Source of the DNA: a virus
IMG/VR virus record: IMGVR_UViG_3300033146_001898
Location: 1-22,913 of that record
DNA length: 22,913 bases
Reading direction: 5' to 3' (one strand)
The notes below the pieces were generated by a model. It was not told where the DNA came from. It did no database searches and saw nothing but the letters and a program-made list of their open reading frames with translations. A program made the translations under genes and the position numbers. This document shows positions 868 to 22,184 of this stretch, piece after piece. The first letter of the stretch is position 1, and every line of letters starts with the position of its first letter.

Positions 868-3663
868 ATGCCTGAGATAAAAAATCTAGAGCCATCAATT
901 AAACAATATCAAGCTTTAATATATCTATGAGCTATACCTATATCAGAAAGAAAAAACGGTAAACGAGAGTTAGTATTAGACGAAAATTGATTAGAGACAT
1001 ACGACTCGAGCACTACTGAATTGGGGTACGGTTGAGCTGCTTGATGATGAAAAATTTTGGGAGATACCAGTTCTCTACTGACAACTTTATGACGAAAGAA
1101 GGGGATAGATGTCAAAGTTTGAGACACATGTGTAGGCTCTGATTGATTACCACAAAAGATAATAGCAATGACAGAGTATATGATACTCCCTAAATGGAGA
1201 GTGTCTTTTTCTGATTGAACACATACTGATGTAGCAGGGGGACATTTATGGACTGCACGAAAATCTAGAGAGTCATTAAGAAAATGATGAAAAAGATTAT
1301 TCTGACAAGACTCAGCACAAGTAGTTGAGACAAAGACTCTAAAAAAACGGATAAATAATAGTGATTGAAATAGATGAATGCCACTAATACCAGTTAATGA
1401 AGAGGTATATTTTGATCAGTCAAATACACCGAATTTAAAAATAGACCCATATTTGTTATGAGTTTTATTATGAGATTGAAGTATGACTAAAGACACAACA
1501 ATCTCATGGTATTGTAGTTGAGAAGATATGGAGTCATACAAAGATATATTTTGATACAGAGATATTAACTATCATAGTAAGCCAATACAGAATGGACAAA
1601 CAAAACATAGCATAACTATTGTAGGAACTAGATTAATGGAATTAAGAGAATGATTAAGAAAATATTGACTAATTGGTACGTATTCCGATACAAAATTTAT
1701 ACCAGAAGAATACAAGTTGTCTTCTATAGAAGAAAGGTACGAAATAGTGCGTTGATTACTTGATACAGATTGAAATAAGGGTAAGTGAAAATATACAACC
1801 TATTACGACACCACTTCAAAGCAATTGGCTGATGATATGGCGTTTATATTGCGTTCATTATGAGCTGTTGTAACAATTAGTAGTAGAATGTGAAAATACA
1901 GAAAGGATTGAGTAGTAATAGAATGCAAGAGATGTTATAGTCTATATATAAAACATAGAGATCCAGATAAATTATTTAAGTTAGATAGAAAGAAATTGGG
2001 TTTAAAACCAAAAGAAATAAACAAGAGAGTTATTAGTGTAGAGCAATTAGACGAGACCATCAAATGAAGATGTATAACAGTATCTAATCCAAACTGACTA
2101 TATATAACAGATGATTTTATAGTAACTCACAATAGTTGGTTATGATGTAATCGAATATATATAATGTGTATGAGATATCCTTGAACAAGACGATTTATAG
2201 CAAGGGAAGAGTTGAAGAAACTAAAGGATTCCACATTACTCACCATGCGAGAGATATTGTGAGATAAGTGACTAAAAAGAGACCATTGATATCATTATAA
2301 TGACATAAGTTGAAGGATTACTTTAGATAATTGAAGTATGATTTTCCTGTTATCGTTAAAAAATGAGCCTTCCGATCCTAAATTTACTAGATTCTGATCT
2401 ATGGAACTTACTTGATGATTCATTGATGAAGCAAACGAATGTCCAATAAGGTGATATTGAGTATTGATATCAAGAATAAGATACAAATTAGAGAATTTTT
2501 GTCCTCTATGTGCATGAAAGATGACAATACACGATAGATTAGGGGTTGTAAAAGTAAAAAATCCTAATCAAACATGTAAAGATGATGAATATATGGAGAA
2601 AAACCTATATTTATGTCCATCTTGTAAGAGACGTAATCATTGACTATCTCCAAAGGTACTAAGTGGCTTTAATCCAGATAAATGACGGGTTCTTACTAAA
2701 TTTTACAGACCTTGGAGTGAGTGAACACAACTAGACCACATAAAGTTTATAAAAGCTCTTGTAACAGATAATAAGAATATTCCTAGAGCATATATAGCTA
2801 ATCTAATGCGTATGGAGAATAAAATAGATAGAGAAAGACTATTACATGGTAATTTCGACTATGATGATTCTCCATGAAGACTTTTTGATTATGATGAATT
2901 ATTATGACTATTTGAAAAACCTCTTGAATCTCAATTACTTAAACAGAAAGAAGATACAGATCCTGACTACAAAGTAGATGTATCAGAATTTGGCAAATGT
3001 CACAGAACTTGATATGAATATAGGATAACCTGTGACCCTGCTAGACACGGTAGGGATTTAGCGATTATTATGGTATGGAATAAGCGAAGTATTGAAGAGA
3101 TATATGTGTATCATTATTCAGATTTGACTGAACTTGAGCAAAGAATAACTATTTTATGGGATAAGTATAATATCTGACCGAGGGAGACGATGGTTGATGA
3201 TGATTGATTATGAGGAGGAATTGTCGATCATATGAAATGTAGATGATTTATAAACAGATCAGCACCCATACAACCTAAAGCAGCAAAGAGAGACCCATTA
3301 AATAGAGTAAATTATTATACTATAAAGGATCAGTGTTACTTTGAACTCGCAAACAATATAGGAAAGGTTTCTATAACACCTGACAATATTTATATATATG
3401 GTAAGAGTCTAAGCAACGCTAACACAACTAAGTTTCAAGATTCTGATAAAAAATTAACATCAAAAGATGTAATAAAAAGAATAATTGAAGAGTTAGACGC
3501 TATGGTAGAGATAGATATTGATATAGATTGACCAAAAAAAGTAATAAGAAAGAAAGAATTGAAAGCAAAATTATGACGTTCCCCAGATTTTGGAGATTGT
3601 ATGATGATGCGTTCATATTGGCATATAAAAAGGAGTAAAAGAGTATTTGTGTTCTCATGATAG
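868..3663 (+). CDS. terL: Terminase large subunit (TerL) precursor containing an intein
   Basis: The 931-codon ORF encodes the DNA-packaging ATPase/nuclease; removing a 361-residue intein gives a 570-residue mature protein, a normal TerL size. The Walker A motif GGAAGGK (residues 55-61) is completed by Ser423 after the intein. Walker B is at GGFIDEANE (516-524). The RNase H-like nuclease acidic residues are visible as D723 (ITCDPARHGRD), D777-D779 (MVDDDG) and D910 (DFGDC). Between ATPase and nuclease lies a CxxC...CxxC pair (545/548 and 583/586), a probable zinc ribbon. Many TGA codons fall on essential glycines, including G59 and G60 of the P-loop. TerL docks on the portal encoded next. A strong terminator follows the TAG stop. 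The family assignment is secure. Confidence 0.93.
1051..2133 (+). other. Class 3 intein with LAGLIDADG homing endonuclease inside TerL
   Basis: This in-frame 361-residue insertion covers TerL residues 62-422 and splits the P-loop between Lys61 and Ser423. The N-terminal block ILGDTSSL...VKVGDTCVGSDG resembles intein block A but lacks the usual Cys or Ser first residue. Block B reads FSDGTHTDVAGGHLW, with Trp128 directly after HL. Block F has Cys402 (GRCITV) where class 1 inteins carry Asp. Block G ends in VTHN followed by Ser423, with Thr420 before His421-Asn422. W128, C402 and T420 make the WCT triplet that defines class 3 inteins, in which the internal Cys replaces residue 1. LAGLIDADG motifs are at 196-204 (LLGVLLGDG) and 293-302 (IVRGLLDTDG). 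Intein and endonuclease are secure; the class is well supported by motif positions. Confidence 0.9.
2500..2625 (+). other. Zinc-ribbon-like insert in TerL
   Basis: TerL residues 545-586 carry CPLC and CPSC separated by 34 residues, with another Cys at 570. The segment lies after Walker B and before the first nuclease Asp. Four paired cysteines with this spacing are typical of a structural zinc site. Zinc binding is inferred from spacing only. Confidence 0.55.
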
Positions 3664-3739: not shown

Positions 3740-5071
3740 ATGTTTGATTTCATAAAAAATAAGATAACTAATGGTTTCTGAAAGAAATTAAGTAAAAATA
3801 CTGTTACTTCTATAATGAATAGAGCATGATATTCGTATATATCAGACAATATTTCTGATTGTTGAGCTATTACATTTAATTATCAAACAATGTTTGATAT
3901 ACAAAGAATGAATACAGAGGCACAGCAAAGTAAAAATCTTATAGTAAAAATGGTGTGAAAAAAATGAATGAATTTTAAAAACGGTAAAGACATAGTTGAA
4001 GATAAGATATGGGAAGAAAAAATAAAAAATTTATTTACAGATCCTTTGACAGGATCATTTCGTAGTATGAGAGATAAATATTATACAAACAATTTCTGTT
4101 CATGAATGGTGTTTTGATATAAGGCACTTAATTGATTATGAGAACCTGTTATCCAAATACTAGATTCAAGATGAATAGATCAATATACGGATAATTATGG
4201 GAATATTAATAGAATATTATATAATAATAAAGAATTAGATATTCAAAGGGTATTTAGACAGATAAATCTATATGACCCTAACCTACCTAAGCAATGAATG
4301 TCTGTTTATGAGAGTGTTGTATATGATGCGTTTTCTGATAAAGAAACTAGTAAAAGAAATTACTATTTTTTTAAAAACAACGCTATGCCTTGAGTTATAC
4401 TTACATTAGATGATGAGATAGAGAATCCTGAGGAGATAGAAGCTGCTATTAAGCAATTTGAAGAAAACTATAAATGATCTGAGAAGTCTAATAAAGTATT
4501 AGCTAGTGGCTGAATAAAAGAAGTAAGAACTATAGATGTATCAAATAAGGATTTAGAATTATTAGAACTTAAAAAGTTTTCTATTAAGAAAATGGGAGTT
4601 ATATTCTGATTTGACCCTAGATTCTTATGATATAAGGATGATGCCAATTGATCTCATGCTGAGTATCAAGTAATGGCTAATCAATCAGATAAATCTATGA
4701 CTGATTTTGCTGATACATTAGAAGATTTTATGTTTAGAATAGTTAAATCTATATACAAAGATTTTAGATATACTTGAATAGAATTAATTAATGATCAATT
4801 TATGGATGAGGTAGTAAAACAAGAATTAATAGAGAAGAAGGTAGAGAAATGATTGTGTACATTAAAACAATGAATACAAGAATTATGATATAGCACTAAG
4901 AATATACCTGCATATATGGATACATATATACTAAATACTCAATGGAATTCTATTGATAATATATTTAAGAAGGCTGAATTAGATCAAAAACTTACTGATA
5001 AAACAATTAAGCAAACATCAGAAGATAGTAGTAAAGAAAACGATTTAGAGGATGAAGATAAAAAAACATAA
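3740..5071 (+). CDS. Portal protein (HK97-type)
   Basis: 443 codons from ATG at 3740 to TAA at 5069-5071. It forms the dodecameric ring at the capsid vertex through which TerL pumps DNA and to which the neck attaches. The middle carries the familiar portal block: PGVILTLDDEIENPEEIEAA, then KVLASGGIKEVRTID, and then FSIKKMGVIFGFDPRFLGY, matching the segment in which portals place the conserved fold around the VPP-like turn. The C-terminus is acidic and disordered (SSKENDLEDEDKK). Length is within the family range. Glycines are mostly TGA. It sits between terminase and protease, the standard order. Confidence 0.88.
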
Positions 5072-5135: not shown

Positions 5136-5942
5136 ATGGATTTCACTTCTATGTCTAAAAAAGAATTTAAGGAATATATCAATCAAAATTGATTTTTCGT
5201 AAATTTCAACGCAAAAAAGATAGACAAAAACGATCTAGATCTAACTGAAACTAATTGAGCTAAAAGAATGGCTAAGTTGCCTAAATGAGATAGTATATTA
5301 GTATTTGAAGGTATAGCATCACAAAATTATGCTAAATGAGATAAAAATAGGAATGGATATAAGATAGATCCAAATGGGTGGGATACTAAGAACTATAAAA
5401 ATAATCCGATTATGTTGTTACAACATAATCATGAATATTGAGGAATAGGACACTCTGTTAAACTATCTATAGATAGTGAGTGAAACTTAGTAAATATGTT
5501 CTATGTAGATCTAAATACTCTGGATGAAAAAACAAGATATCAAGTAGAAAATTGATTTATAACTGCTGTTAGTACATCTCATATCACATTAGAGGACATG
5601 ATAGAGGACAATAAAACAGGTAAAAGGATGACTCGAGAAGAAGCTCATGAAGAGTGAGTAGATTTGTGGGGTGTTATGTTCTGATACAATGAGGAATATA
5701 CATTAGTGGTAACTAAAGCAGAAATGATAGAGAATAGTCTTGTTACAATAGGAAGTAATGCAGAGGCTATAGTAACTCACAATAGTGTATGAAATTATTT
5801 TACTAATAAATATATGTCTAATATGACTATTACAGATGAACAAAAAAAAGATCTTCTTGGAAGCAAGTTATCAGATAACTTAAAAGCCAAAATTAATTGA
5901 CTGAAAGTAGAAAACGAATTAGATAAAAAAGATGAATGATAA
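5136..5942 (+). CDS. Prohead maturation protease (HK97/S78-like)
   Basis: 268 codons from ATG at 5136 to TAA at 5940-5942. It would cleave scaffold and capsid N-termini during procapsid maturation. The catalytic His region is NNPIMLLQHNHEYGGIG, with H97 and H99 as candidates. The catalytic Ser is probably S146 in FITAVSTSHI, and the downstream EMIENSLVTIGSNAEA block (196-211) matches the strand after the active site in this family (typically ELSLVPVPANP-like). The last 55 residues are a charged linker and helix. The gene overlaps the scaffold-like ORF by 11 bases, which ties their expression. Family assignment is good; the exact His is not certain. Confidence 0.82.
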
Positions 5943-6437: not shown

Positions 6438-7586
6438 ATGGCAAGTATTTTAGAAAGAATGAACCAACTTAAAGAAGTTGGAGGAGTTGATAACAAAGTT
6501 ATCGAATCACAAGCAAACGAATATAAAGAATTACTTAAAACAAAACAAAATGCAAATGAAGTAGAACATACAGGTAATGTTTGATATGGAAAAGAACTTA
6601 TCCCAGATGATGTTCTTACTAATCAAATATTAACTATTATACCTACTTATGCTACATTCCTTAACGCTCTTAATGGGTTTCATGGAAATAGTATGGGTAA
6701 ATCAGTTACTATGCCTATTTTAGGTGAAGTTTGATATGCTGTAGGGGTAGATGAAAGAACATCTGCTGCATTGGCACACAAACAAGCAAATAGAAGACTA
6801 CCTACTGACAAAGTTACTATTACACAACAAACATTATATGCACAAGTTGATGTATCAAGACAAGAGTTGTTGTATTCAGTAGTTGAATTAGAAAGTATTA
6901 TTAAAAAAAGATTATCAGAATCTTTTGCTAGAACAATCGAATCTGTAATTCTTAACGCTGATTCTTTAGTAGCTGCTACTGGTAATATTAACTCTGATGA
7001 TCAAGATCCTACATTGGCTTTCGTTGATGGAGCACAAGATCATAGATTAATCTACGATAATGGTATAAGAAAAACATTCCTTTCAGGAACAGTTGATGTT
7101 GACTTCAAAGATATAGGAGCTATGTCTTGGGCTAACATTATGGAGACTAGAGGTCTATTAGGTGACTGGTCTTTTGATTTAAGTGATCTTCTTCTTTTGA
7201 TGAACGGAGCTACTTATAATAAAGCTATTACAATACCTGAATTTGCTGACGCATCTAAAAACGGACAAAAATCAACAATTGCTACATGAGCTATAGATAG
7301 AATATCTGGTAATGATGTATACATAGTAAGATCTTATCCTAAAACAGAAGCTGATGGTAAAATATCTACTGTTACTCCTACTAATAACGAAAAGTGAGGT
7401 TTCCTATATATGAAGAAACAAGCTGTACAGTATTGATACGGTGCACCACTAGATATGGAAGTATATAAGATTCTAGGACAAGGTATTTCAATAGTTGCTG
7501 CTATGGAGTTCGGTTTCGCAATCGTAAACAAAAAAGCTGGTAATGTTGATCCATGGATTGTCGGATGAATAAATGTGACACTATAG
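6438..7586 (+). CDS. Major capsid protein (HK97 fold)
   Basis: 382 codons from ATG at 6438 to TAG at 7584-7586. It forms the icosahedral shell. An N-terminal helical segment (residues 1-48) precedes GYGKELIPDDVLTNQILTII, the start of the mature-like domain in HK97 capsids. The protein continues through PTDKVTITQQTLYAQVDVSRQEL, an SESFARTIESVILNADS helix, and a C-terminal DMEVYKILGQGISIVAAMEFGFAIVN segment typical of the A domain. Its glycine codons are unusual for the window: 27 GGN against 6 TGA. It is followed by a terminator-like hairpin. Assignment rests on motifs, size and position. Confidence 0.88.
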
Positions 7587-7604
7587 TATATATATAATAG
7601 AATT

Positions 7605-7626
7605 GGGAATAGGTTGTTCTATTCCC
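7605..7626 (+). terminator. Terminator-like hairpin after the capsid gene
   Basis: GGGAATAG (7605-7612) and CTATTCCC (7619-7626) form a perfect 8-bp stem with a six-base loop. The downstream sequence ACACTTTACTTTAATT is only moderately T-rich, so read-through to the next gene is likely and would set a high capsid-to-neighbour mRNA ratio. Confidence 0.65.
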
Positions 7627-7654
7627 ACACTTTACTTTAATTAATAACTACATT

Positions 7655-8179
7655 ATGAATAAATTTAGATATATATGAAGAGAGCATACTTTTGTATCTC
7701 AAGTAGAAGGGTGACCATCTTTCAAAGTTAAGTCTTGAGATACAATAAAGACAGAGCTTCCTACAAAATTCATGTTGAGCAATCAATTTATAATGGTTGG
7801 TCAAGAAGCAGAGGAATTATCTAGATTATATAGCAGATTTGTAGATTCAGAAAAATCTAAAATAGAAATGATATGATCTAAATACAAATTATTCTGCGAT
7901 GAGTTTGATAAACAAAAAAAAGCTAAGAAAGCTGATTTTGATTTAGCGGTTGAACAATCCGAGATTCTTTTGAAAAAAAGAAAAGAAGAATATATAGCTA
8001 AGTTAGAAGAATTAGCAGCAGATGAAGATAAAGATGTTTCTGTTCAAGCAAAGGTTTTCTTAAAGGAAATTTGAGGGACTGTTAACAAAAAGACTAAAGA
8101 AGCAGAAGCTAAAATGAAAGCAGAAGTAGACGCTGAAAACAAAAAGGCTGAAGAAGCAGAAGCTAAGGCTAAAAAATAG
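7655..8179 (+). CDS. Head-associated hypothetical protein with charged coiled coil (174 aa)
   Basis: 174 codons from ATG at 7655 to TAG at 8177-8179. The first 45 residues are mixed beta-type (HTFVSQVEGGPSFKVKSGDTIKTELPTKFM), followed by long Lys/Glu/Ala helices ending in KAEEAEAKAKK. The N-terminal part resembles small head or decoration domains placed next to capsid genes, but no family is firmly recognisable. The C-terminal two thirds should be a coiled coil. Lying between capsid and connector genes, it probably belongs to the head. It uses five TGA and three GGN glycine codons. Confidence 0.6.
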
Positions 8180-8206
8180 TATATTTTAGATTTTTATTAT
8201 ATAATT

Positions 8207-8746
8207 ATGTTCGCAACTGTAGATGATGTAAAAGGGTTTGTATGACTTCAATATAGCGATGCAAAAATAGAAATGCTACTAGAAGCTACAACAAACGACA
8301 TAACATCTGTAGTATGAGACATAACTTATGGGATAAAAACAGAAGATATATCTATATGTGATATAAATAAATTATCTATTTTTCTAACTAATATACAGGT
8401 TCATAAGATACTTCAAATCAACTGAAAAGATTACGTTGGTAATTATGAAATATTAAAACCTCAAAATAGAAGGGTGATTCTTACAGACATATATTCATAT
8501 ATAAACAACTCTTGAACTAACAAAACATTCAAGATAAAATATATATCGTGATATACTATAATACCTAGCGATATAATATTAGCACAAACATTAATAGTTA
8601 GTGATATGTTAGAAAGCTGATGATGAAGACAGATATCAAAATATAAGATGTGACCTAGAACTGTTGAATATGAGAGTTGATCTACTAGTAGTTATAAAGA
8701 TAAGGCTGAAGAGATATTGAATAGATATAGGCTTTTAAAAATATAA
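8207..8746 (+). CDS. Head-tail connector protein (gp6-like)
   Basis: 179 codons from ATG at 8207 to TAA at 8744-8746. The N-terminus (FATVDDVKGFVGLQYSDAKIEMLLEATTNDITSVVG) has the helical layout of phage DNA-packaging/connector proteins of the gp6 type, which begin with a similar 'VDDVK..lG' helix and form the ring beneath the portal. The end (SGSTSSYKDKAEEILNRYRLLK) also matches this family, in which a final helix closes the domain. It is the first of four short genes with one- to sixteen-base overlaps or gaps that make up the neck. Assignment rests on pattern and gene order. Confidence 0.7.
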
Positions 8747-8756
8747 TGGATATACA

Positions 8757-9125
8757 ATGTGAATAATGGATACATTTTATGATAAAGTTGTAGATATATA
8801 TTCAATAGAGATAACTAAAAGAAGATGAGCTGACGTAAAAAATAAAACATTATTATATAAAAACATAAGATGTGAATATTATATTGCTACTAGAGGTAAC
8901 GTAGTTAACTGGCAACCATCATTATGAGATAGGCAACAAGATCTTGATAGAATAGACCTAGTTATACCTTGATCTGAATATGATATTGCTAAGAAAATCA
9001 AAGCATGATATTATATAGTAACTAATGAGTGAGATTCGTATATAATAGATCAGATAGATTATTATAGGATGCCAGATTGAACATTAGAAAGTATTTATGT
9101 AAGACTAAATCAAAAATGAAAATAA
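8757..9125 (+). CDS. Head closure/head-tail joining protein
   Basis: 122 codons from ATG at 8757 to TAA at 9123-9125; an in-frame ATG at 8766 is an alternative start. The product is a small beta-rich protein (YYIATRGNVVNWQPS, IDLVIPGSEYD, GYYIVTNEGDSYIIDQIDYYRMPDGTLESIYVRL) of the size and character of head completion (stopper) proteins such as SPP1 gp16 relatives. Its position directly after the gp6-like gene agrees. Direct motif support is limited, so the role is mainly from order. It overlaps the next gene by ten bases. Confidence 0.6.
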
Positions 9126-9511
9126 CTTTTGATACAAACGCTATCATAAATAGAATAGCTAAAAAGTATGAAAAGAGATTGGATGAATGATTAGATATAA
9201 CAAAGGAGTATATCGACAATAGAACGCCAGAACTTACACGTGATTTAATACAACATACAAAAATAAAAAAATCTAAGTTAGTTGGTTTACAGATATCTGG
9301 TTCAGTGTATAATGATTTATGAGACTATGAAATAGATGTTGAAAAAGGTAAAGGGATTCCGTTTATATATCATAAGTATCCAGAATGAGGAACTGATCCA
9401 TATAAAAGAGATATATTAAATATTATACCTCAAGAAGGTGCACATATGTTTAGAGATGGTTTTGATGCGGCTAAGAATATTTTAATTGAGATATTGAAAG
9501 ATGATAACTAA
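9116..9511 (+). CDS. Neck/minor tail protein (HK97 gp10-like)
   Basis: 131 codons from ATG at 9116 to TAA at 9509-9511. An N-terminal helix (NAIINRIAKKYEKRLDEGLDITKEYIDNRTPELTRDLI) precedes a beta domain containing GLQISGSVYNDLGDYEIDVEKGKGIPFIYHKYPEGGTDP. It ends with IIPQEGAHMFRDGFDAAKNILIEIL. This arrangement, with 'TP..TG.L..S..v' followed by Y..y.E.Gt and a final helix, is typical of HK97 gp10-type neck proteins. It overlaps both neighbours, which fits tight translational coupling. Confidence 0.68.
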
Positions 9512-9917
9512 TCTAATGATATACGACATAACAAATACATTAGAGAATATCCCAACAATAATATCTATGTTCCCATGATGAATTACTAACGAAGCACCGT
9601 TAACAGCAAAGGTATTTCCATATATGTATGTTGATAAATTCGAATATTGATCTAAGAACGGTCTTACTAGGCGTGCACATGTAGATATGTCAATAGTATG
9701 ATCTCCAGAGATGGTATCAGATGATATAGAGGTAATGTTTTGAGTTATAGATAATGAGATATTAACTAACATCGACTGATGTTCTCCTATATCTGTGCGA
9801 TGAAACGCTGTAACTACTGAAATAACAAGTGGAACAACTAGCAAGACAATGAGGGACATGAAAGAAAATATAGTGATAAGAAAAACATATAATTTTACAT
9901 ATCTAACGCAAACATAA
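9501..9917 (+). CDS. Probable tail terminator/tail completion protein
   Basis: 138 codons from ATG at 9501 to TAA at 9915-9917. Position (last neck gene before the tail tube), length, and an N-terminal helix followed by strands (LTAKVFPYMYVDKFEYGSKNGLTRRAHVDMSIVG...ITSGTTSKTMRDMKENIVIRKTYNFTYLTQT) fit tail terminator proteins of siphoviruses. No diagnostic motif is visible. It starts 11 bases inside the previous gene, and its stop lies one base before the next start. Confidence 0.5.
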
Positions 9918-9918
9918 T

Positions 9919-10116
9919 ATGTGATGTACAGACTGCAAAGATGAAAAGAAAGATAATGTATTAAGCAATAGAAAAAACAAAAACAATAAGAATAAAAAAC
10001 ACAACAAAGAAAATACTAAAAATATTATATCTGTTAAAGAATTAGATAATTTAAAGACTGTAAAAGCATTTAAAAACAAATCTAAATCTTCTAGAACAGC
10101 TATAATTCATTATTAA
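9919..10116 (+). CDS. Tiny Lys/Asn-rich CxxC protein (65 aa)
   Basis: 65 codons from ATG at 9919 to TAA at 10114-10116. It starts MGCTDC, a CxxC pair near the N-terminus, continues with a strongly basic Lys/Asn stretch (residues 8-35), and ends SRTAIIHY. It contains a single TGA glycine at residue 2. It is placed between the tail terminator and major tail genes with one-base spacing from the former, so it is probably translated. Nothing similar is part of the standard tail gene set that I can name. A metal- or nucleic-acid-binding role is possible but only inferred. Confidence 0.5.
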
Positions 10117-10141
10117 TTTTAACTTTATAATTATATAACAA

Positions 10142-11005
10142 ATGGCAAATTTTTCAAAAACAAACGTATCGTATAAAGCTGCTAAGGTGTATATCACACT
10201 ATTTGATCCTGAAAGCACAAAGGCATTAAATATACCAGATAGAACCTTAACTACATTTAACGATAATGTAAGTGCAGTAATCGCATACCTTGAGTCTAAT
10301 TATGTGTTCGATAGAATGGCATGATTTAAAAATGTAAAAATATCAGATGCTTTTGAAAATGAAATAACAGATGAAGTAGATGATTGTGATATTCAAGAAC
10401 GACAAAAGAAGGCTGAAATATCTACAACCTTTTCAGGTGATTGGTTAACAACTCTTGATTTATGAGTTCTTGAAATATTATTAGGGTATGGTTTTTCTTC
10501 TCAAACAGGAGCATCTATAACTGATGATACATTTACTTTGACTGCTAATAGTCGATCACAAGATAAGTTCTACAGACTACCATACCAACATCACGATGCA
10601 AATGGTAATATAATCAAACCAACTGTATTTGCTGCTACAGCAGGAGGAACTGGTATTACTGATGGAACTGACTATAGAATAGAACAAAATTCTTACTGAG
10701 AATTTGGTTTGGTGGTATATGGAACAGTTGCTACAACAAACGAAGTTGTATTAACATACGATCATACAACAATAACAGCTGACTTCTGAGGTTTTGAATT
10801 TGGTGATGTGATACAACCATATATGATAGTTAAGATAGAGACATGTCCTGATGAAAATGGTAAAGTACATTACTACTATATCACAAAGGCTTCACTGTCT
10901 GGTTCATTAGATACAAACTTCATCTCAAAAGGAGAAGTACCATTGTCTTCTATAACATTAGTATGAGGAAAAGGATGAAATAAATACTTCCAAAAATCAT
11001 TATAA
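10142..11005 (+). CDS. Major tail tube protein
   Basis: 287 codons from ATG at 10142 to TAA at 11003-11005. It polymerises into the tail tube. It is beta-rich with few charged helices; KISDAFENEITDEVDDCDIQERQKKAEISTTFSGDWLTTLDLGVLEILLG matches the loop-plus-helix of siphovirus tube proteins, and later strands (FGLVVYGTVATTNEVVLTYDHTTITA) are Thr/Val-rich. The gene lies between neck and tape measure and is followed by the strongest terminator in the window. Its glycine codons are 18 GGN and 6 TGA, like the capsid gene and unlike its neighbours, consistent with high expression. The tube role is well supported by context. Confidence 0.75.
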
Positions 11006-11162
11006 TAATATTGTAAAATATCCTATTTATTAGACTTATTACAATACACTGATGATAGTATATACTACCAACACAATACAATTGGTCTTAAATGATTTTT
11101 TCATTAGGAGGGATAGGGGATTACTGTCCTTTATCTCTCCTTTTTAGCTTATATTATTCATT
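11006..11162 (+). promoter_or_regulatory. Intergenic region between tail tube and tail assembly genes
   Basis: About 157 bases without a gene. The first half is AT-rich with a possible weak stem (TTGTAA near 11011 with TTACAA near 11039). The second half contains the strong terminator at 11106-11145 and then TTAGCTTAT, which is the reverse complement of the AAGCTAA core of the repeated motif found at 5062 and 18228. No promoter sequence could be recognised with confidence. Confidence 0.4.
11106..11145 (+). terminator. Strong intrinsic terminator after the tail tube gene (copy 2 of repeated element)
   Basis: AGGAGGGATA (11106-11115) pairs over 10 bp (one G-U) with TATCTCTCCT (11132-11141), with a possible inner GGG/TCC extension, and is followed by TTTTT. 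It resembles the hairpin at 81-111 in sequence as well as shape. It would separate the highly expressed head and tube genes from the tape measure and tip genes. Confidence 0.85.
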
Positions 11163-11708
11163 ATGTGGTACGATTATCCTATGAAGTGAGAATTTGACGT
11201 GACTATAAATGTAAATATTTGATATTCAAAAATAAACAAAGAGATAAAAGTAGAATTAAAATATAAACAAGCATCTATTTTTGAAACAATACAATTTTTT
11301 AAAGATATTGATACTAAGTGATTGTGATCTTGGTTAGAGAGGTTTTTGAAAAAATATAGTAATGCAAATAAAATCACATTATGAATAATAAAAGTTGATA
11401 AAAATACAATAACAAGAATATTTAATATAATAAAAGATACTAGATTTAGGGGTGTATTCTGAGACAGGGAACAAAAATATGAGTGAAGGAGTAGACCATA
11501 TAACTCAATACTAGTATTATTATCAGAAAGGTTATGAATAGACCCTGATACATTTCAGAACAGATATACAATAGAGCAAATGAATTATTTATTATGATGA
11601 ATAGTATATAATATAAATGAGCAAAGCGATGAATGAAAAGAAATTAATGACAGGGAACAATTTAATAAAGAGAATGCAGACGAAGATCTTTTAGAACTAA
11701 TTAGTTAA
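11163..11708 (+). CDS. Probable tail assembly chaperone-position protein (181 aa)
   Basis: 181 codons from ATG at 11163 to TAA at 11706-11708. It lies between tail tube and tape measure, where siphoviruses place the tail assembly chaperones that coat the tape measure during assembly. It begins with a short strand region (GEFDVTINVNIGYSKINKEIKVELKYKQ), continues with mostly helical sequence (GLGSWLERFLKKYSNANKITLGII, ILVLLSERLGIDPDTF), and ends in an acidic tail. No overlapping second frame or slippery heptamer was found, so the usual G/GT frameshift product is not apparent. Function is inferred from position only. The tape measure starts one base after the stop. Confidence 0.5.
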
Positions 11709-11709
11709 T

Positions 11710-14700
11710 ATGTCAGAAAAATTAGAGGTAACCGTAGATATAGATTTGAGTAATTTAAATGAAAAATTATCTCAAGCGAAAAAACTAATTAGCGATGCTT
11801 GAAAAGATATGGAGAAGCAGGCTTCTACTTCGGCAAGTAAAGCTGCTACTGCTAGTATTGATGCTGATAAGAAAAAACTTGATAGCACTAAAAAAACAAC
11901 TAAGGCACAAGCTGTTAGTATGAAATCATTGTCGGATCTTTCTATAAATGAAGTAGAAAGATTAAAAACTAAAGTAATTAGTAATATGGAAAAGATAGAT
12001 GCTGCATTTAAGTTAGATCCAGCAAAAAATACACGTGCTATGAAAGAACGGGAAGCTGAGATAAGAAGGACATGAATTACAGCTAAAGATACTGGTAAGA
12101 AATTGGATAAAATGGCAGAGAATAGATATATTGAATTGAAAATAGAAAAAAACAAGATGGTTAATGACTTAAATAAAGTCAAATCTCTTATAGCAAAGGC
12201 TACACTATCTCAGCATGTAGATATAGATATAGATAAAGATAAAGTAAAAAAGCAATTAGTAGAGGTTAGAGCAGAATTAAAAAAAGCTACAAAGAGTTGA
12301 AACGATAATATTATACATTTAAGTATATCAAAAGAAGAGGAGCTTATAAGAAAGTTGAAATATCTTGAAGCAAGAAAGAAAGCTGTAACAAAAACTGCTA
12401 CATTAAAGATAAGAATGGAAACAGACGACGTAAAAGCTGCTTTCTCGGAGACGAATAGAGAAATAAAAAATCTAGAAACTCAGTGAAAATCATCAATGAG
12501 TCGTATTTGAAAACACGTTAATAATATTACTAATTCAATTAAAACAGGATTAGCTACAATGATAAGTTGATTTGTAGTATTACAATGAATTAGAAACTTA
12601 ATACAATGACTTAATGATGCTAAAAATGTTGCTTTACAATGGGAAAGCTCTTTTACTGGTGTAAAAAAGACAACCAAGGCTACAGCTGAAGAATTTAAAA
12701 AATTAAATAAAGAATTGGTACAGTTGACTAAAGAGATACCATCTACTTATGAAGAGATAACAAAAATAGCAGAACTATGATGACAAATGTGAGTTCCTAT
12801 AGATCAATTAAAAGCTTTTACAGAGGCTGTGGCGATGATAGGTACAACAACAAATCTTTCTATAGAACAAGCTGCTACACAGTTTGCAAGATTGCATAAT
12901 ATAATGTGACTACCATTAGATAGAATAGATGAGACTGCTAGTGCAGTAGTATCTCTAGGTAATAATTTTGCAGCACAAGAAGATGAAATATTAAATTTTA
13001 CTACAAGGATAGCAGGTAGTTGAAAAGTAGCTAAAATGACAGTATGACAGTTGACATGAATAGCAACTGCACTTACTTCTGTTGGTATCAAGGCAGAAAT
13101 GTGATGATCTGCAGTGAGTAAAGCTATGCTTGAAATGAATTCTGCAGTTTCTAATTGATGAAAAGAATTGGAATGATTTGCAAAAACATCTTGATTATCA
13201 TCAAAAGAATTTAAAGATATGTGGAAAGATGATGCTGCTTGAGCGTTTACTTTGTTCGTAGAGTGATTGTGAAAAGCTTGAGATAAAGCAGACGCTGTAA
13301 TAGCATGATTATTGTGAGATAATGTTAGAACTAAACAATCTTTTCTTAATCTTGCATGAGCTGGAGACTTGTTAAGAAGAGCAATAGAAAATGGTACAGA
13401 GGCACGTAAGTTAAATTTAGCACTATCTAAAGAAGCACAACTTAGATATGGTACAGAAGCTAGTCAACTAAAAATATTGACAAACAAATATGAAGAACAA
13501 CAAAATATAATGTGATGACAACTTGTGTGAAGTTACAAAAATCTTACTAAGTTAAAACTTAGTTTTCTTACTTGAATAGTAAAATTATCAGAAGCTTTAT
13601 GAGGTATGAGTGTTATTCTTACTTGACTGGTATGAATATTATGAGTATTAGCTGTTGCATTTGGTATAATATCTACTCCAATATTATTGGTAATCTGAGC
13701 TGTAGCTGCTGTAGCAGGTTGAATAGCTTTGTTATGAAGAGAGACTAGCTGATATATATCTGAAGTAGAAAAACTTGAGGGGCGTATGATAGATTTAACT
13801 AAATCTATGGAGGCTAATAAAAACGAACAAAGTAAGGTAGAACAACAATATATCTCTGGTAAAATTTCGTTAGAAGAATATAGAAGTGAGATGGAGAAAT
13901 TGTATTCTGAAGAACTTAAAATGAATAAGATAAGAAGCGAAGTTGCTGATGATCTATGAAAACAGAATTGGATGCAGAATAAAATGACAGAGACAAAAAG
14001 AAAGCATAAAGATCTATTAGCTGAAGAGTCAGTTGCAACCAAAGAAGCTACCAAATCACAAGAAAAGTATAATGATAAAAAAGCAGAGTTGGATAGACTA
14101 TTTTTTAATGGTGTAATAACACAAAAAGAATATAATGAGCAACTTGATTTGTCTAACAAAGAGAATATAAAATATCAAAGTTCATTACTTTCAATAAAGG
14201 CTGCTGTGTCACAGAGTAGTAAAGCTATGGAGAATAAAAGACTTATTCTTCGTGCATTAGTTGAAACGACAAATAATGATATAGAAGTTGAAGAAAGATA
14301 TAACGAACTTAAAATAGACAATACTGATGATGTTACACAGATATTAAATAAGACAAATGCTTTAGCAGAAGAAATAGCTAAAGGTAGAGAAGCTATCGGT
14401 GTTGATCTAGCTAGGAAGAAAGTAGAACTTGCCTTAGCAAAAGAAACGGATTCGTGACGAAGATGAGCTGCTAAGTCCGCATTGAAATTTGTGTCTATAT
14501 TCTCACCATGAGTATGAATATGAATGAAGTGACTAGAAGATTGAAAAAATAAGATAACAAATAATCTAGTACAAGAGGTAGACAAACTACAAAAAGCTTT
14601 TGACGATCTAGGTGAACTAAAGGTAGAGCCAATAAAAGTTGTTGATCCAGCATCAGCATGAAACGCAGAGAAAATAGCTAGTGCATTATGATCTATGAGT

Positions 14701-14742
14701 GAATCAGCAGAGCAGAGTTATCTAATGTTTGAAAGTGAATAG
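11710..14742 (+). CDS. Tape measure protein, N-terminal and central part (frame broken at 14740)
   Basis: 1010 codons from ATG at 11710 to TAG at 14740-14742. The protein sets tail length and travels through the tail with DNA. The N-terminus has four copies of a strand-plus-helix unit: VDIDLSNLNEKLSQAKKLI (about residues 8-27), YIELKIEKNKMVNDLNKVKSLI (139-160), HVDIDIDKDKVKKQLVEVRAEL (169-190) and a degenerate one at 229-255. A TP901-type tape measure domain follows (NNITNSIKTGL...AAFTEAVAMIGTTT-like region, about 275-430). A long hydrophobic stretch spans roughly 632-677, then coiled coil to the stop. The natural C-terminus is found later in the same frame (14911-16344), so this ORF is probably the first part of a single ~1544-residue protein. 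Confidence 0.85.
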
Positions 14743-14942
14743 ATAAAGCAAAAGTACAACAACAAATCAAAGAAGCTGAGCTAGCTTTAGCTAAAGCTCA
14801 TTACTTAGAACAACTACAATATACACAAGATCACTTTGATGATGAAGTAGAAAAAGCTCAAATAATAATGAGGTTAAAGGAAGAATATGACGATAGAGTT
14901 AGACAAATAAATGAAGAAGAAGGAATGACAGAGTGCATATAA
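14688..14942 (+). CDS. Out-of-frame middle segment of the tape measure gene (84 codons)
   Basis: An open frame, -1 relative to the preceding ORF, runs from ATG at 14688 to TAA at 14940-14942. From GIDKAKVQQQIKEAELALAKAH onward it reads as a well-formed helix or coiled coil up to RVRQINEEEG, exactly bridging the two in-frame tape measure parts. Restoring one A at 14739 (GAAATAGAT for GAATAGAT) and removing one G near 14922 joins all three into one frame. It is therefore more likely a displaced internal segment than an independent gene, although its own ATG leaves a separate small protein possible. Confidence 0.55.
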
Positions 14943-16344
14943 TTGAATATTAAGTAGTGTTGAGAAATTATCTGACGAACTAAAGGATATGGCGTTAGAC
15001 ATTGCTGAGATTAATGATGATATTTCTGATATAAATTCAGATGCAGTGGAAGATGTAAAAGACAGATACGCTGATATAACCAAAGAGTTAGATACTTTGA
15101 CATGAAAAATAAATGAATTAGAAGCTAAAACAAAATCAGCTAGTATAGAGACATCCAATATGGAAGATGATCGAAAAGCAGTAACTAAACAGATAACAGA
15201 TAGTCAGAAACAAATAGATTGATATCAAAAAAGTATAAGTAAGATTAATGATGATATATCGAGTCTTGACACAACATCAAGCGAACAATTAGCAGAGAGA
15301 TATGTAGAACTATGATCTGAGATAGAAAATAGTCAGACACAACTGGATGAATTAAATGCAAAAGCTACTTTATCTACTGAGGAAGCAGAAAAGAAATTAA
15401 AACTTGAAGAGGATATAGCAAAAGCCAAAGCTGAACAATCATTAGCGGAATCTCAAACAACTGCAGCTGATATAAGTGATGCTACAATTAGAAGTACAGA
15501 GTCTGAGACTGAAAGAATATTGAGAGAAAAAGATGAGAAAAAAGCAGCATACGAACAAGAGCTTATAGACCTACAAGATAAGTTAAATGCAGAGCAAGTT
15601 ATATTAGCTACTGCACAAGTAGAGGAGGCTAATCTTAGGGGTCAGTTAGATAAAATAGAGATACAAGAACAACAAGCTAAACTAGATAAATTACAGAGTC
15701 AACTAGAGTGATATTATGATGATAGAGCAAAATTATTAATAGAGAAAAGACAAGCAGAAAATATCTTAACAAATAAACAACAACAAGATGCGTTGGATGA
15801 AGAATTAACTACAAAGACAGCTTGAATAATAGCAGAGAGAAATATAGATTTAGAGGCTAAAAAACAGGAATTGGTAGATCTTAAAGAATCTAATAAAGCG
15901 AAATTAGATGAAATGAAAGCATATTTTCTCCAAATACTTAGGATGTCAAAAATGAGTAAAGCACAGTTTTGAGAGTCTTTCGATCTAGGGGATTTTAGTT
16001 TTGATGACTTGCAAGGTAATCTATCTTCTTCTAATATAGGCTGATTTACAGAATGATTTAGTGGTGAGTATAAAGATGAGCTAAAGGCACAGGTAGACGC
16101 TACAGAGAAGATAGCTAAACTATGAGATTTGTTTGAAAAACTTAACGAAACAAACAAAAAAGATTCAGATAATATGTTTAGATTATTAAAGATAGTTACA
16201 TGATTAAGAGAGACTGCAGCGTTGCCGCAGACAATAGATCAGAGGATGTTAAAGACCATTAACCAGAATAATAATTTTAGTGTAACTTGATGAATAGATA
16301 TGGCTTCGATAGAGAGTATGTTGAGAAGATCATTAAAGATTTAG
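14911..16344 (+). CDS. Tape measure protein, C-terminal part (477 codons)
   Basis: The frame resumes that of the first tape measure ORF. The first ATG is at 14911 and TAG is at 16342-16344. It is nearly continuous coiled coil (heptads through KINELEAKTKS, QLDELNAKATLSTEEAEKKLKLEE and many more). It ends with a short globular segment and NNNFSVTGGIDMASIESMLRRSLKI, the kind of strand-turn-helix that closes many tape measure proteins. That ending, and the absence of a start-proximal domain, argue that it is the C-terminus of the upstream protein. If the frame changes are real, this part could still be made from ATG 14911, although AAATAA lies immediately upstream and no ribosome binding site is visible. 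Confidence 0.75.
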
Positions 16345-16361
16345 TTCTTATATAAAGCAAT

Positions 16362-17198
16362 ATGATTTGAAGAAATTACGTATATAACTGATTCGATATG
16401 ACAGATAGAGTAGCAATAGCCAATAAGTTTGCTCTTCAGGATGTTGATATATCAGTTGTACAAAGACAAGAAATAACAGACAACGCTAATGATCACTGAA
16501 GCGAGTCTAGTCGTACATTAGCTTCAGGTAGACTATTTTCGTTTTCTTGAAAAGTAGTTTGACTAACAAAAGAGATAAGATGACAAGCATGGGATATGAT
16601 TTGTGACGCAATCAACCTAGAACCATTTATGGGCTCTGAGTACTTACATGATTTATTATTCCAAACAGATTCATGAGAGGATAGACAAGTTAAGGTTCTA
16701 GTAAAAACTGCACCTAAATGAAGTAACTGACTACATAGACCAGAGATAAACTTTGTGTTTGAATTGTACGCACCATGATTCGCAGTATACTGAATATCTG
16801 AAGAATCAGAAAGTTGATCTTCTTCTGTATTTTGATGAACAAGTTTTGCAAATAAATTTGGAGATTCATGGTGATCGTTTTCATGAGATGTTGTATGTAA
16901 CAATGAGTGAAATTATAAAGCATGATGTGAAATAACGGTAACATGAGAACTAGTAAATCCTATAATAAAAAACATTACAAATTGAAATCAATACAAAATA
17001 AACTGAACAACTAATAATTTAGTACTTAATAGTAAGGATGGACGAACAGTAAAAGATTGATGAATAGATATAAGTTATAAGAGGGATTATGGTACAGCTA
17101 TAATGTTGTCTCCATGATTAAATACTATAGTGGTATTTTCTGATTGAGGTAATGCCACATTCACCGTTAAACGGTTTTCAGCTTGGAACACAATATAA
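16362..17198 (+). CDS. Distal tail protein (Dit-like)
   Basis: 278 codons from ATG at 16362 to TAA at 17196-17198. It begins with a short strand (NYVYNGFDMTDRVAIANKFALQDVDI) followed by a RTLASGRLFSFSGKVVGLTKEIRGQAWD segment typical of siphovirus Dit N-terminal domains, which form the hexameric ring at the tube end. The C-terminal half is a beta-rich, galectin-like region (VVCNNEGNYKAGCEITVTGELVNPIIKN...LNTIVVFSDGGNATFTVKRFSAWN). Placement directly after tape measure is canonical. Glycines are 25 TGA to 6 GGN. The next gene starts two bases after the stop. Confidence 0.8.
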
Positions 17199-17200
17199 AC

Positions 17201-18229
17201 ATGGATATAATAATAAAAGTGTATGATAACTACCGAAGCAATGTTGAGAAGTTTAGTTTTTTAACTAAAGAAGCAATAAAGATAGAAGAAGATCTTGATT
17301 CTTTTGATATTGCAACATTTAAGGTTAAATGATATGAGTTGATAGAATATAATAAAATAGAAATATATGAAGTAGGTATACCTGACAAACTAGTATTTAA
17401 ATGATTGGTATATCAACCTGAAAAGAATATATCAATTCTTAGAAACGAAACAATAATCACATGTAGGAGTGAAAGAAATATAATGTCAGATAGAAAAGTT
17501 TTGGTAGAGAGGGATAAAAACGATACAGTCGCAAATATAATAAATGAATTATTATCTGATTATTCTACAGATTCTTGGTCTACTTCTATAGCTTTCCCAG
17601 ATACTATAAATATAAAGTACAATGAATGAGATAGTTATGATAGTATCTTCTCTGAGATAGCTAAACAATGTTGATGATTTTGGGACATAAAAGAATGAGT
17701 AATAATTATGGATTATTTATTGTGAACTGATAAGACATGAGGTAGTAATAAAATAGATGTTGTGTTTACTAAGTCTCAATGAGACAATATAAAAAATGTA
17801 AATATTGTATGACAATCAACTAGATCAAATATAATAATATGAGATGATTGAGTATCAAAATATATTGCACAAGATATGACAGATTGATTTGTATATTGAG
17901 TAACAAAATACAGGTTCAGAGAGGGTGATTTGGCTATAAAAACAGAAAAGATGCTAGAACAATTAAATATAAGGCAAAGAATATTAAATATAGAACTTGA
18001 TCCTAATAAAACTATAGAAGCATATATTTGAGATAAGTTAAATATGGAAATATCTAACGTAAATGATTTAGAGGATATTAAGTGAGAGGTATTGGTAACT
18101 AAGAGAATTATAGACTATAGTTTTGCTAGAAAAAGGGTACAATTATTCTTGTGAGAAAACGTTATAAAAGAAGATTCATTATGAGACATAATAGTAGGTA
18201 TAAAAAGGGAACTAGATATGATTAGCTAA
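17201..18229 (+). CDS. Baseplate hub / tail-associated structural protein (Tal-like)
   Basis: 342 codons from ATG at 17201 to TAA at 18227-18229. It follows Dit, where siphoviruses encode the tail hub that closes the tube. Its first 200 residues have the layout of gp27-like hub domains: DIATFKVKGYELIEYNKIEIYEVG...VFKGLVYQPEKNISI, then a short helix (DTVANIINELLSDYS) and FSEIAKQCGGFWDIKEGVIIMDYL. The last block (RQRILNIELDPNKTIEAYIGDKLNMEI) matches the outer hub beta-barrel. No lysozyme or peptidase domain is visible. Glycines are 18 TGA to 4 GGN. Repeat motif copy 3 begins at its stop codon. Confidence 0.7.
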
Positions 18230-18244
18230 AAACATAAGCTAAAA
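18228..18244 (+). repeat. Intergenic motif copy 3 (AAAAACATAAGCTAAAA)
   Basis: This 17-base sequence is identical to 5062-5078 and again begins at a stop codon. A second AGCTAAA lies just upstream (18224-18230), giving a short direct repeat. Confidence 0.55.
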
Positions 18245-18295
18245 TAGTTAAATTATATATACTAAATGAAGTATATTTTAATAGTAATTTAATAA

Positions 18296-18847
18296 ATGAG
18301 ACGACTTACAAATATATCTGCGGAAACACAATATGGTATAGATACTAATATACCTGACATATGAGAGATAAATGTTCTTGCATGAGCTGTTTTTCCATGT
18401 ACAGATTCTCAGTGAGAATATTTGGTGAATGCTTATGGGCACTTTTTTGAAACTGTATACAATATATGAGGTTCTTGAGAAGTAAACATTTGAAATAATC
18501 TAGGTATTGGTGAATGAGTATATAGTACAAAAACAGGTGCTGTTTTAAACTTCAAATCATTGATTGCATGAGCTGGAATACAAATAACATCAACAGCTAA
18601 CGAGATAACAATAACGTCTACAGCTTCTGCTACGCAAGTATTTGAGGATAATTTTGTATTAACTGCTACAGATATATCTAACTGATATATAGACTTATCA
18701 AATAGTCCAGACACATGATCTATGATAATATTAACAGTGTTTTGAATAATTAATTATGATTATTCGTTAGTAGCTAATAGAATTACATTCTGAGGTACAT
18801 TAAATGTAGAAATATGAGACGAAATAGATGTTACATATTACTTTTAA
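18296..18847 (+). CDS. Tail fibre/tip protein with a phage fibre module (183 aa)
   Basis: 183 codons from ATG at 18296 to TAA at 18845-18847. It is almost wholly beta-rich. The central block GEGVYSTKTGAVLNFKSLIAGAGIQITSTANEITITSTA (about residues 75-113) is a module seen in many phage fibre and receptor-binding proteins, where 'G..vyk.ktG..l.fksL.aG.GI.it....i.I' precedes the tip domain. The C-terminal ~65 residues form a separate strand-rich domain ending DEIDVTYYF. It probably takes part in trimeric fibre formation. Most glycines are TGA. The next fibre gene starts 17 bases after the stop through an AT-rich leader. Confidence 0.65.
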
Positions 18848-18864
18848 TTAATTATATAATATAA

Positions 18865-19950
18865 ATGAAACAAATTATTTGATCAAGACAGATACAAGAT
18901 TTGTCTATCCCTAATGGGAAAATTACGGATACTACATTAGAATTTGGGAAACTAAATACTAATATGTATACAACAGATTTAGCTGTTTCTGCTACTGTTA
19001 CTGAACTAGCTAGAGCGGATGCTATAAAATCTTATGTAGATGGTTTAGTTGATGGTTCATTAAAAACACCAGAAGCTTACAATCCTACAACTACAGGTAA
19101 CTATCCACTAACTTATAGTGGAGCTACTATTCAAGCTGGTGATTCATTCAGAATTACTGCTGCACAAGCAAGTATCGGATGAGGTTCAAGAGATGTTAAC
19201 GTAGAAGATTTATTGATCGCTTTAGTAGATTGAGCTGGAGCAACGACTGACGCTGATTGGATGGTTGCAGAAAGTAATAGAGATCAAGCTACTGAAACAG
19301 CACTAGGTCTTGCTGAATTAGCTACACAAGCTGAAACAGATGCAGGTACTGATGATCTAAGAATAGTAACACCATTAAAATTGACTACTTTCATAGCTAA
19401 TCTAAATATAGATAAAACCGCTGGAGCAGGAATGACAGAAACAACTGGTACATTCAACGTAATAGCTGCTGATCTATCATTAAATATAGCTGCTGATAAT
19501 ATGCAAGTAAATATTGGTAACACAAACGGAACATCATTAGAAGTCTCTGCTACAGGACTAGAACTAGCTTCTAATATTACTGGAGAGAGAACATTTACAG
19601 TAGGAACTTGAAATAATTTTGATATTATTGCTGACGCAAACTTAGCTACATTGAGTTCACAACCTACAGGTACAGTTCCTTTAGCTATTGCTACAGTTGA
19701 TTATGTAGACAACAATGCTGGCGGAACATGGGGTAAAGAAATACATACATTGACAGCTTGAGAAGTTACTGCTGGAGCATTTACAATGTCTCAAACAGCT
19801 ATTGCTAATAGTATGGATTTTATATTCAATGGTTCTGTTCAAACAGAATGAGCATGAAACGAATATACAGTATCAGGTACTACAGTAACACTAGTTACAC
19901 CAGCTGATCGAACAGCAGGAGATGTAATTGTACTTAAATATCAATACTAA
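18865..19950 (+). CDS. Tail fibre protein (361 aa)
   Basis: 361 codons from ATG at 18865 to TAA at 19948-19950. The N-terminus (IIGSRQIQDLSIPNGKITDTTLEFGKLN) resembles attachment segments of tail fibres. Residues about 139-172 (ATETALGLAELATQAETDAGTDDLRIVTPLKL) carry the widespread fibre motif in which 'AT....Gi.elAtq.Et.aGtDd.riVtP.kL' recurs along the shaft. The rest is Thr/Ala/Gly-rich beta structure. Its base use stands out: 28 glycines are GGN and only 7 are TGA, the reverse of adjacent tip genes, which suggests high copy number or a different origin. A hairpin follows its stop. Confidence 0.78.
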
Positions 19951-20024: not shown

Positions 20025-22184
20025 ATGCAACAAATAGAACAGTCACAGATATGACTTAACCAAATGACAGGTAGTTCACTAAACGCCTGATTATGATTCT
20101 ATGATGAAACAAAAGCATATTCTAGTGGAGATAGAGTGAATCGAGGAGTAAAAACATATGAAGCAAATGCTGGGACTAGATGAATTCTAACTAGCTCACC
20201 AGATTTGAGTGTAGATTGGGATGAGGTAGCTGTCTCTAGCTGATGAAGTTATTTATCTAAATCTGTAGTACTATGAGAAGATGTAACAGCATGAGATTGA
20301 CAATGAGCTGTATTCTTTGGATCATGAAATATAGACACAGAAAACACGATACAAGATACATGAGGCTCAGATTTGAATATCTGAGATAATGTTGCAAGAG
20401 AAAAGCAATGATTTATATTCACTCCAAAAGTAGATTGAAATATAGATATATTAAGAAGTTTTAAGTTTAATATAAAAAAGACTTGAGCACCTACAGATAA
20501 TCTAGAATTTAATTTATATGCTAGTGATAAAACAACACCTATTGCAGGATATACACAACAGATTATAGCTGGTTGAGATCTAACTGCATCATATGTACAA
20601 ACACTAATAGATTGATTAGACACTACAATAACAGATTGAACATCATATTTCTTAGAATTTAGTAGAAGTTGAGCATTGGATGCCTCTAACTATTATCAGA
20701 TAGAATATATAACCAGTGATGAGGTAGCTAATTATTGATATTCTACTTATAATTGAAGTGCTTGGACAGATAGTGTAAATGATTTAGATTTTGATGTACA
20801 GTATTGAAAGGATTGTACTATTAACAAAGTACGAAAAACAGATAGTAGATATTTAGAAACAAATAAGTGCGATTGAGTGGTTATAGAATGAGGCTCTGCG
20901 GACGAGTCTAAAAAAATGATTTCACAATGAGATTTAACACAAGGAGATGTGAGTATTTGATCTGATTATTTTATTAGAAATAATAATTTAAATGGATATA
21001 GTCTCGATAGTATGCGGAATAAAGAGACGTTAGATCTATCAGCTACATGACAAGATCCTAGATGACTAGAATTTAATGATGATGGTAGTAAGATGTATGT
21101 TTGATTTACGTCTGACGATGTTATATATGAATATGCTTTGTCGACTGATTATGATATTACAACGGCGATTGCAACAGGTAATACACTAAATACAGCGTGA
21201 CGAGATACAGCACTTTGATGAATTAGATTTAACCCAGACGGGACTAAGTTATATGTAATTGGTGTAACAAACGCTAGGGTGCATGAGCGGGATTTATCAA
21301 CTGCTTATGATATTACAACAGCCACTCACATAGATTACTTACAGATATCAGTAGATACATATATTAGGAATATAGCATTTAATGCAGACTGAACAAAATT
21401 TATTATAATAGGTACTGGTAATCTGCGTATATATGAATACAATTTATCTGTAGCTTATGATATAAGCACAGGTACATACTCAACAAATAATTTGTATGTT
21501 TGAACATTTGTTGCATCAATAGAGTCAATTTGTTTTTCTAATAATTGAGAAAAATTACTTATAACTGGATGAAATGAGTTATTGCAATTTGATTTATGAA
21601 CAGCTTATGACGTAACAAGTGCAAGAATAAACACAACACTAGACGTTAGCTCGGACACAACACAACCGTCTTGATTAGCATTTAACCAAGATTGAAGCAA
21701 GATTTTTTATGGTTGAAATGATAATGACACAATATTTGAGTATTTAATATCAGACAATAAAATAACAGGGTCGTTTTGATTATATGAAAATGATAAATTA
21801 GGAAGCTATAGATTATGAAATTGAATAAACTCAACCAATATAGTATTGATGACAAATGAAGAAAAGTATTGATATTGATTTAAAGATACAATAGACGCAG
21901 CCAATAATACTACTTATCATGCCAAAGAAGATTGATTTGTAACTGCATATGTGACAACTTCTTCATGAACTAATGACCCTGTATCATTACATTGATATGC
22001 TTGAGATGATGATAGTTCTGTATTAGTAGCTCCTTGACACGCTCATTGATATTCTAATGCAAGCCCTAGAGTAACGATTACTTTCCCAGTAAAAGCATGA
22101 CAATATTATAGAGTAAAATATACGTTAAGTTGAAACTTGGTATTGGGGACATTCGAGGCAAAATTTTATCCATTATCTGCATAA
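20025..22184 (+). CDS. Large tail-tip protein with a beta-propeller domain, probable receptor binding
   Basis: 719 codons from ATG at 20025 to TAA at 22182-22184. Residues 1-80 contain a carbohydrate-binding-like segment (YDETKAYSSGDRVNRGVKTYEANAGTRG). About 100-250 is a beta-sandwich region. From about 335 to 570 there are five repeats of roughly 50 residues, each with F(N)xDGxK followed by hydrophobic strands and then LSTAYDITTA-like sequence (turn glycines at 354, 406, 456, 508, 557). This is a WD40/YVTN-type propeller pattern. The C-terminal 140 residues form another beta domain ending KFYPLSA. Glycines are 54 TGA and 23 GGN. Position downstream of fibres and the propeller suggest host-surface binding; the ligand is unknown. 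Confidence 0.72.
21015..21755 (+). repeat. Five-fold propeller repeat within the tail-tip gene
   Basis: Five diverged units are spaced about 50 codons apart (mean roughly 150 bases). Their turn codons are GGT at 21084, GGG at 21240, and TGA at 21390, 21546 and 21693. Amino acid similarity is clear while DNA identity is low, so the duplication is old. A full propeller would normally need six or seven blades; a sixth may be hidden in diverged flanking sequence. Confidence 0.65.

Follow-up and report, generated by a model that had tools for sequence, protein, structure and literature searches.

The virus record IMGVR_UViG_3300033146_001898, analyzed here over its whole length of 22,913 nucleotides (22.9 kb; hereafter the window), carries head and tail genes in which TGA is a glycine codon. 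In the major capsid genes of the window and of its relatives with the same genetic code (code 25), this reassigned codon is depleted relative to its unreassigned synonyms GGN. The most probable explanation, which we hold with a probability of roughly 80%, is translational selection against inefficiently decoded UGA-Gly in phage genes whose products are needed in high copy number.

The genes of the window are open only if TGA is read as sense, and few open reading frames of at least 100 amino acids exist under code 11. In total, 348 in-frame TGA codons were counted versus 202 GGN codons, and TGG occurred 31 times. When the window capsid was aligned with its relatives, glycine was present in 77% of them at the positions encoded by TGA, and for every lineage having TGA columns glycine was the commonest residue in these columns. 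Because TGA aligns with glycine columns in the capsid relatives, it specifies glycine and not tryptophan in the window. The window belongs to a tailed phage whose host, judging from the code, is probably a code-25 bacterium of the Gracilibacteria or Absconditabacteria type.

Two classes of glycine codon usage in the window

The HK97-type major capsid protein gene (positions 6438..7586, plus strand, as for all window genes named below) uses TGA for 6 of its 33 glycine codons (27 GGN); it was identified by matches to the Pfam family Phage_capsid (PF05065, E = 4.6e-8) and to the PHROG major head protein. For the tail tube gene (10142..11005), which contains 6 TGA among 24 glycine codons (18 GGN), no family match was found, and its identity was assessed by fold instead. 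A model built from six homologues, of moderate confidence only (mean predicted local distance difference test score, pLDDT, of 69), retrieved major tail proteins of phages as the three best PDB hits in Foldseek (YSD1 first, E = 3e-7; Chi phage major tail protein, E = 2e-5) and also matched tail proteins in a viral structure library, which suggests that the product is the tail tube. The third gene poor in TGA (18865..19950; 7 of 35, 28 GGN) gave weak PHROG matches, and "fibre" is a tentative label for it. Ordinary tail fibres are not high-copy proteins. Outside glycine, the fibre-like gene shows low ATA usage (0.38) and high codon adaptation calculated without glycine, and in this respect groups with the capsid gene; a gene at the corresponding place in the L002 contig (L088 17381-18193) is likewise TGA-poor (4/27).

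Together, the three genes use TGA for 19 of 92 glycines, compared with 329 of 458 in all other genes (Fisher test, p = 5e-20), and each of them also differed when tested alone against all other window genes (capsid, p = 5.9e-8; tube, p = 1.2e-4; fibre, p = 1.4e-7). Heterogeneity between genes was large (chi2 = 104, 20 degrees of freedom; as large in 0 of 2,000 permutations) and was no longer significant when capsid, tube, and fibre were omitted (p = 0.22). As the heterogeneity vanishes without the three low genes, the split into two glycine-codon classes described in an earlier note on this DNA is literally true for the window. The hand counts given there for capsid, tube, fibre, distal tail, hub, and tail tip were all six exact on recount. 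Its statement that the proteins expected in highest copy avoid TGA holds for capsid and tube, for which it was replicated in relatives; the fibre gene is TGA-poor but weakly identified. In the window, a small gene at 9077-9511 has a low TGA share as well (3/10), which is not so in relatives.

Capsid and tail genes of code-25 relatives

A search of IMG/VR with the capsid gave a set of 25 code-25 lineages, the window and 24 others, whose capsids belong to one family and are pairwise no more than 80% identical. In a stratified comparison of capsid versus other genes, TGA was strongly depleted relative to GGN (odds ratio [OR] 0.095, z = -21.6), with 73 TGA codons observed and 341 expected, and the capsid had the lower TGA share in 24 of the 25 lineages. 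With GGA as the only reference codon, the OR was 0.069 and the capsid was lower in all 25. Several lineages contained no TGA at all among 26 to 43 capsid glycines. The depletion in the window is comparatively mild, and low capsid TGA was kept across 27 to 75% capsid identity. Homologues of the tube in relatives were equally poor in TGA (0/22, 1/22, 0/23, 1/22, and 1/12). The capsid gene of L030 (9148-10239) is a case of extreme codon adaptation, in which all 35 glycines are encoded by GGA and none of the 24 isoleucines by ATA.

Counted per gene over all glycine codons and pooled for the closest relatives (clade A), the TGA share fell as the expected copy number rose, from 0.74 in the hub, 0.62 in the distal tail protein (Dit), 0.60 in the tape measure protein, and 0.56 in the terminase large subunit (TerL) to 0.48 in the portal, 0.28 in the protease, 0.07 in the tube, and 0.03 in the capsid. 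The virion copy numbers used for this gradient are the general expectation for siphoviruses.

Within the window, the high class includes the genes for the portal (3740..5071; TGA 21/27), which is intermediate in relatives (0.44 pooled), the tape measure protein (11710..14742; 50/69), and Dit (16362..17198; 25/31, 6 GGN), the last matching PHROG 33 Dit with E = 1.7e-10. It also includes a tail hub-like gene (17183..18229; 18/22, 4 GGN), named from synteny and from the homologues of relatives, and the tail-tip gene (20025..22184; 54/77, 23 GGN), which lies outside the interval of the earlier note. The prohead protease gene (5136..5942) uses TGA for 12 of 21 glycines; in relatives the protein is longer and low in TGA (0.24 pooled). 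The TerL gene (868..3663; TGA 56/79) contains an intein with a LAGLIDADG endonuclease domain (codons 63-422), inserted in the Walker A motif (GGAAGGGK|...|S). Assuming that the insertion point is precisely the K/S junction, the intein begins with Ile (ATT) and not Cys or Ser; a similar intein in L001 has Ile as its first residue, too.

Codon adaptation, composition, and timing

All codons were compared between capsid and other genes in 17 lineages. TGA (OR 0.07) and ATA (OR 0.11) were the two most significantly avoided capsid codons, and AGG, TCG, CTG, and CCG were avoided as well. The codons favored in capsids were GGA (3.7), ATC (4.8), AGA (3.3), TCT, GCT, ACT, CTT, CCT, TTC, and TAC; T-ending codons of fourfold and C-ending codons of twofold families were preferred. 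Standard-code members of the same capsid family avoided ATA too (0.17) and favored GGT instead of GGA. Since these family members already avoid ATA, TGA heads a pre-existing list of poor codons and is the most extreme element of a broader codon adaptation to which the avoidance of ATA also belongs. The TGA share per gene was negatively correlated with an adaptation score calculated without glycine (pooled rho = -0.49), also when the capsids were left out (rho = -0.39, p = 3e-9, n = 211). The base at position +4 differed slightly between TGA and GGA, with C and T being more and G less frequent after TGA.

The earlier note had proposed that TGA decoding is limiting and that codon choice tunes expression. 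Understood as translational selection, this proposal is strongly supported by the depletion in the 25 lineages, but TGA is one of several avoided codons: ATA avoidance in the same genes is nearly as strong, and usage changes across the entire codon table.

Some observations weigh against translational selection. The training set of the adaptation score consisted of capsids from other lineages. In L019, L021, and L229 the capsid is mildly depleted (0.34 to 0.43), and the probable tube gene of L019 (13468-14058, placed by position) is undepleted (TGA 11/16). In L060, TGA relative to GGN is higher in the capsid (8/32) than elsewhere (48/335), and the same direction holds for the clade L041/L043/L044/L060. 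The genomes of this clade are depleted of TpC/GpA, with an observed/expected ratio for TC of 0.10 to 0.38 in every codon phase. The depletion extends to the non-coding DNA of L060 (TC, 23 versus 74 expected; GA, 30 versus 77 expected; ratios of 0.3 to 0.4) and is absent from the near relative L030 (72% identical). This genome-wide loss makes all codons ending in GA (TGA, GGA, AGA) rare, and we attribute the L060 exception to it. Measured against GGA, the TGA share of the L060 capsid was still lower than elsewhere (0.42 versus 0.54), a small difference based on few codons. The depletion looks like the footprint of a TpC-specific cytosine deamination, or of its avoidance; GANTC occurs at 0 to 2 sites in the L060, L044, L041, and L043 loci.

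Base composition or avoidance of a DNA-level motif, unlinked to translation, is a most improbable cause of the capsid pattern. The GC content at codon positions 1 and 2 is indeed higher in capsid genes, but that at position 3 is not raised, being similar or lower, and the strongest effect was obtained with TGA versus GGA, which are one base apart. Out-of-frame TGA was undepleted in capsids (OR 1.04 and 1.10), and as the depletion exists in frame only, the compositional account was rejected. The coherent shift of capsid codons over many amino acids is unexplained by composition.

Standard-code phages do have members of the capsid family, and low-TGA genes could have been acquired recently from such phages without having taken up TGA yet; the earlier note had proposed, more generally, that recent genes have adapted less. 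However, this time-lag explanation has next to no probability left. The low TGA share is conserved in further lineages over the range of capsid identity given above, fourfold sites of the capsids are saturated or almost so when relatives are compared, and their glycine codons interchange freely among GGN, which indicates that there was time enough for TGA to enter. Moreover, the mobile TerL intein (24/34 TGA) has reached the level of the surrounding extein (32/45). Recent acquisition was rejected on the basis of this conservation, the synonymous saturation, and the intein at the local TGA level.

For TAG-recoded (code 15) phages it has been hypothesized that recoded stops in late genes delay their expression (cited in PMC9523058 and PMC10746230). 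The L060 capsid with its 8/32 TGA is superficially similar, but its pattern follows the TpC/GpA depletion, and we regard such gating as extremely unlikely in the code-25 phages. The most typical late genes, capsid and tube, are depleted of TGA, and early genes match low-copy late genes in TGA share: the genes to the left of TerL are about as rich in L003, L004, L017, L019, and L009 and richer in L006. The recoded stop is thus not enriched in late structural genes, and the lateness account was rejected.

Decoding of UGA and comparison with other recoded systems

The following mechanism could connect codon choice with copy number. With UGA specifying glycine in all genes, AT-biased mutation would make it the default glycine codon. 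Where a virion requires hundreds of copies of a product, selection for efficiency would remove UGA, AUA, and other poor codons, and UGA would be replaced by GGA and GGU. The agent would be neither termination nor misreading but slow or limited decoding of UGA by a host tRNA-Gly(UCA) that is either rare or inadequately charged.

Loss of full-length product through drop-off or residual termination at UGA, the latter also raised in the earlier note, would matter most in high-output genes. UGA is an ancestral stop codon, and fewer TGA codons in high-output genes would fit, but this explanation is improbable. According to PMC6851277, none of the genomes studied from BD1-5, the presumed host group, contains release factor 2 (RF2, prfB), the release factor for UGA. 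Long tape-measure genes retain a TGA share of about 0.6. The cost of late truncation predicts a 5′-to-3′ gradient of TGA within genes, whereas none was observed (OR 0.91, z = -1.1). Reduced accuracy is a less remote but still doubtful cause; here, UGA-Gly would be misread more often, e.g., as tryptophan, and high-copy lattice proteins would tolerate wrong residues badly. Capsid and tube are polymers whose assembly could be spoiled by a faulty subunit, and rare peptides with other residues at UGA have been described (Hanke 2014, PMC4032931). In an Akashi-type test of the non-capsid genes, however, invariant glycines showed no more than a slight, non-significant deficit of TGA (OR 0.85, z = -1.35), ATA behaved like TGA (OR 0.90), and the shift over all codons resembles one for efficiency. 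By elimination, the speed or supply of charged tRNA-Gly(UCA) is the best fit.

A rough hint comes from proteome data, in which 97 of 820 high-accuracy BD1-5 peptides were UGA-Gly specific (Hanke et al., PMC4032931); under assumed glycine and TGA frequencies, this is below what we would expect if the usage of UGA in abundant host proteins equalled that in the average gene. A search of IMG/VR for code-25 host fragments with ribosomal protein S12 found none, a scan of genome contigs with a tRNA-Gly(UCA)-like pattern gave four unrelated contigs only, a TerL search of viral contigs gave no match, and a search with a TGA-rich P-loop pattern returned almost only chance matches. On the phage contigs, tRNA-Gly(UCA) was not found in the 34 sources scanned. 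A tRNA-like element is located upstream of the terminase gene at positions 188-256 of the window; with its six-base anticodon loop and imperfect acceptor stem it is possibly a degenerate tRNA or the remnant of an attachment site. The code-25 relatives L004 (3266-3338) and L005 (516-588) carry a tRNA-Trp(CCA) gene upstream of terminase. L004 also contains a frame of the GYGDGNG type with 47 TGA in 110 codons (2456-2785); on the opposite strand this repeat consists of TCAGTN units and gives a Ser-Val type repeat, and the frame may not be a gene.

It was shown previously that phage structural genes expressed in high copy use translationally preferred codons beyond effects of composition and amino acid content (Lucks et al. 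2008, PMC2266997). The high-copy structural genes studied here do the same, but in contrast to those standard-code phages they avoid a reassigned stop more than any other codon, and the bias does not extend to the low-copy structural genes. Highly expressed genes of Blastocrithidia (PMC12153298) and of the ciliate PL0344 (PMC10553269) contain fewer in-frame reassigned stops, a deficit that was interpreted as reflecting a translational burden. The depletion where high output is expected is the same, although here the expectation derives from virion copy number. Those two are eukaryotic nuclear codes (Glu/Trp and Lys/Glu, respectively), and in Blastocrithidia UAA still also serves as a stop; the present case concerns phages with UGA as glycine, where several closely similar synonymous codons serve as controls. 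We found no report of depleted reassigned stops in highly expressed genes for code 25 in a partial coverage of the literature, and priority is unproven. Phages of Absconditabacteria and Gracilibacteria share the code and the dense in-frame TGA, which may be codon optimization for efficient translation according to Liu et al. (2023, PMC10746230); our high-copy genes point the opposite way. Like the code-15 crAss-like phages, in which recoding may, as suggested by Peters et al. (2022, PMC9523058), postpone the production of late proteins, the code-25 phages have in-frame recoded stops in structural genes, but their capsid and tube genes are nearly without the recoded codon.

The results argue against dense UGA as codon optimization in code-25 phages and extend to bacterial viruses the eukaryotic pattern that reassigned stops are avoided in abundant proteins. 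For annotation, low TGA marks genes of code-25 phages that are likely to be high-output. Depletion in these genes provides a replicated statistical readout of how a reassigned stop performs in largely unculturable bacteria, and it turns the cost of a genetic-code change into a directly testable question on tRNA-Gly(UCA). Somewhat speculatively, UGA may be a permanently second-rate glycine codon in code-25 organisms, served by a tRNA-Gly(UCA) that lacks the normal third anticodon base and is poorly decoded or charged; mutation and reductive evolution would then have driven the reassignment to fixation in spite of a lasting translational cost, with UGA being cleared only from the genes of highest output.

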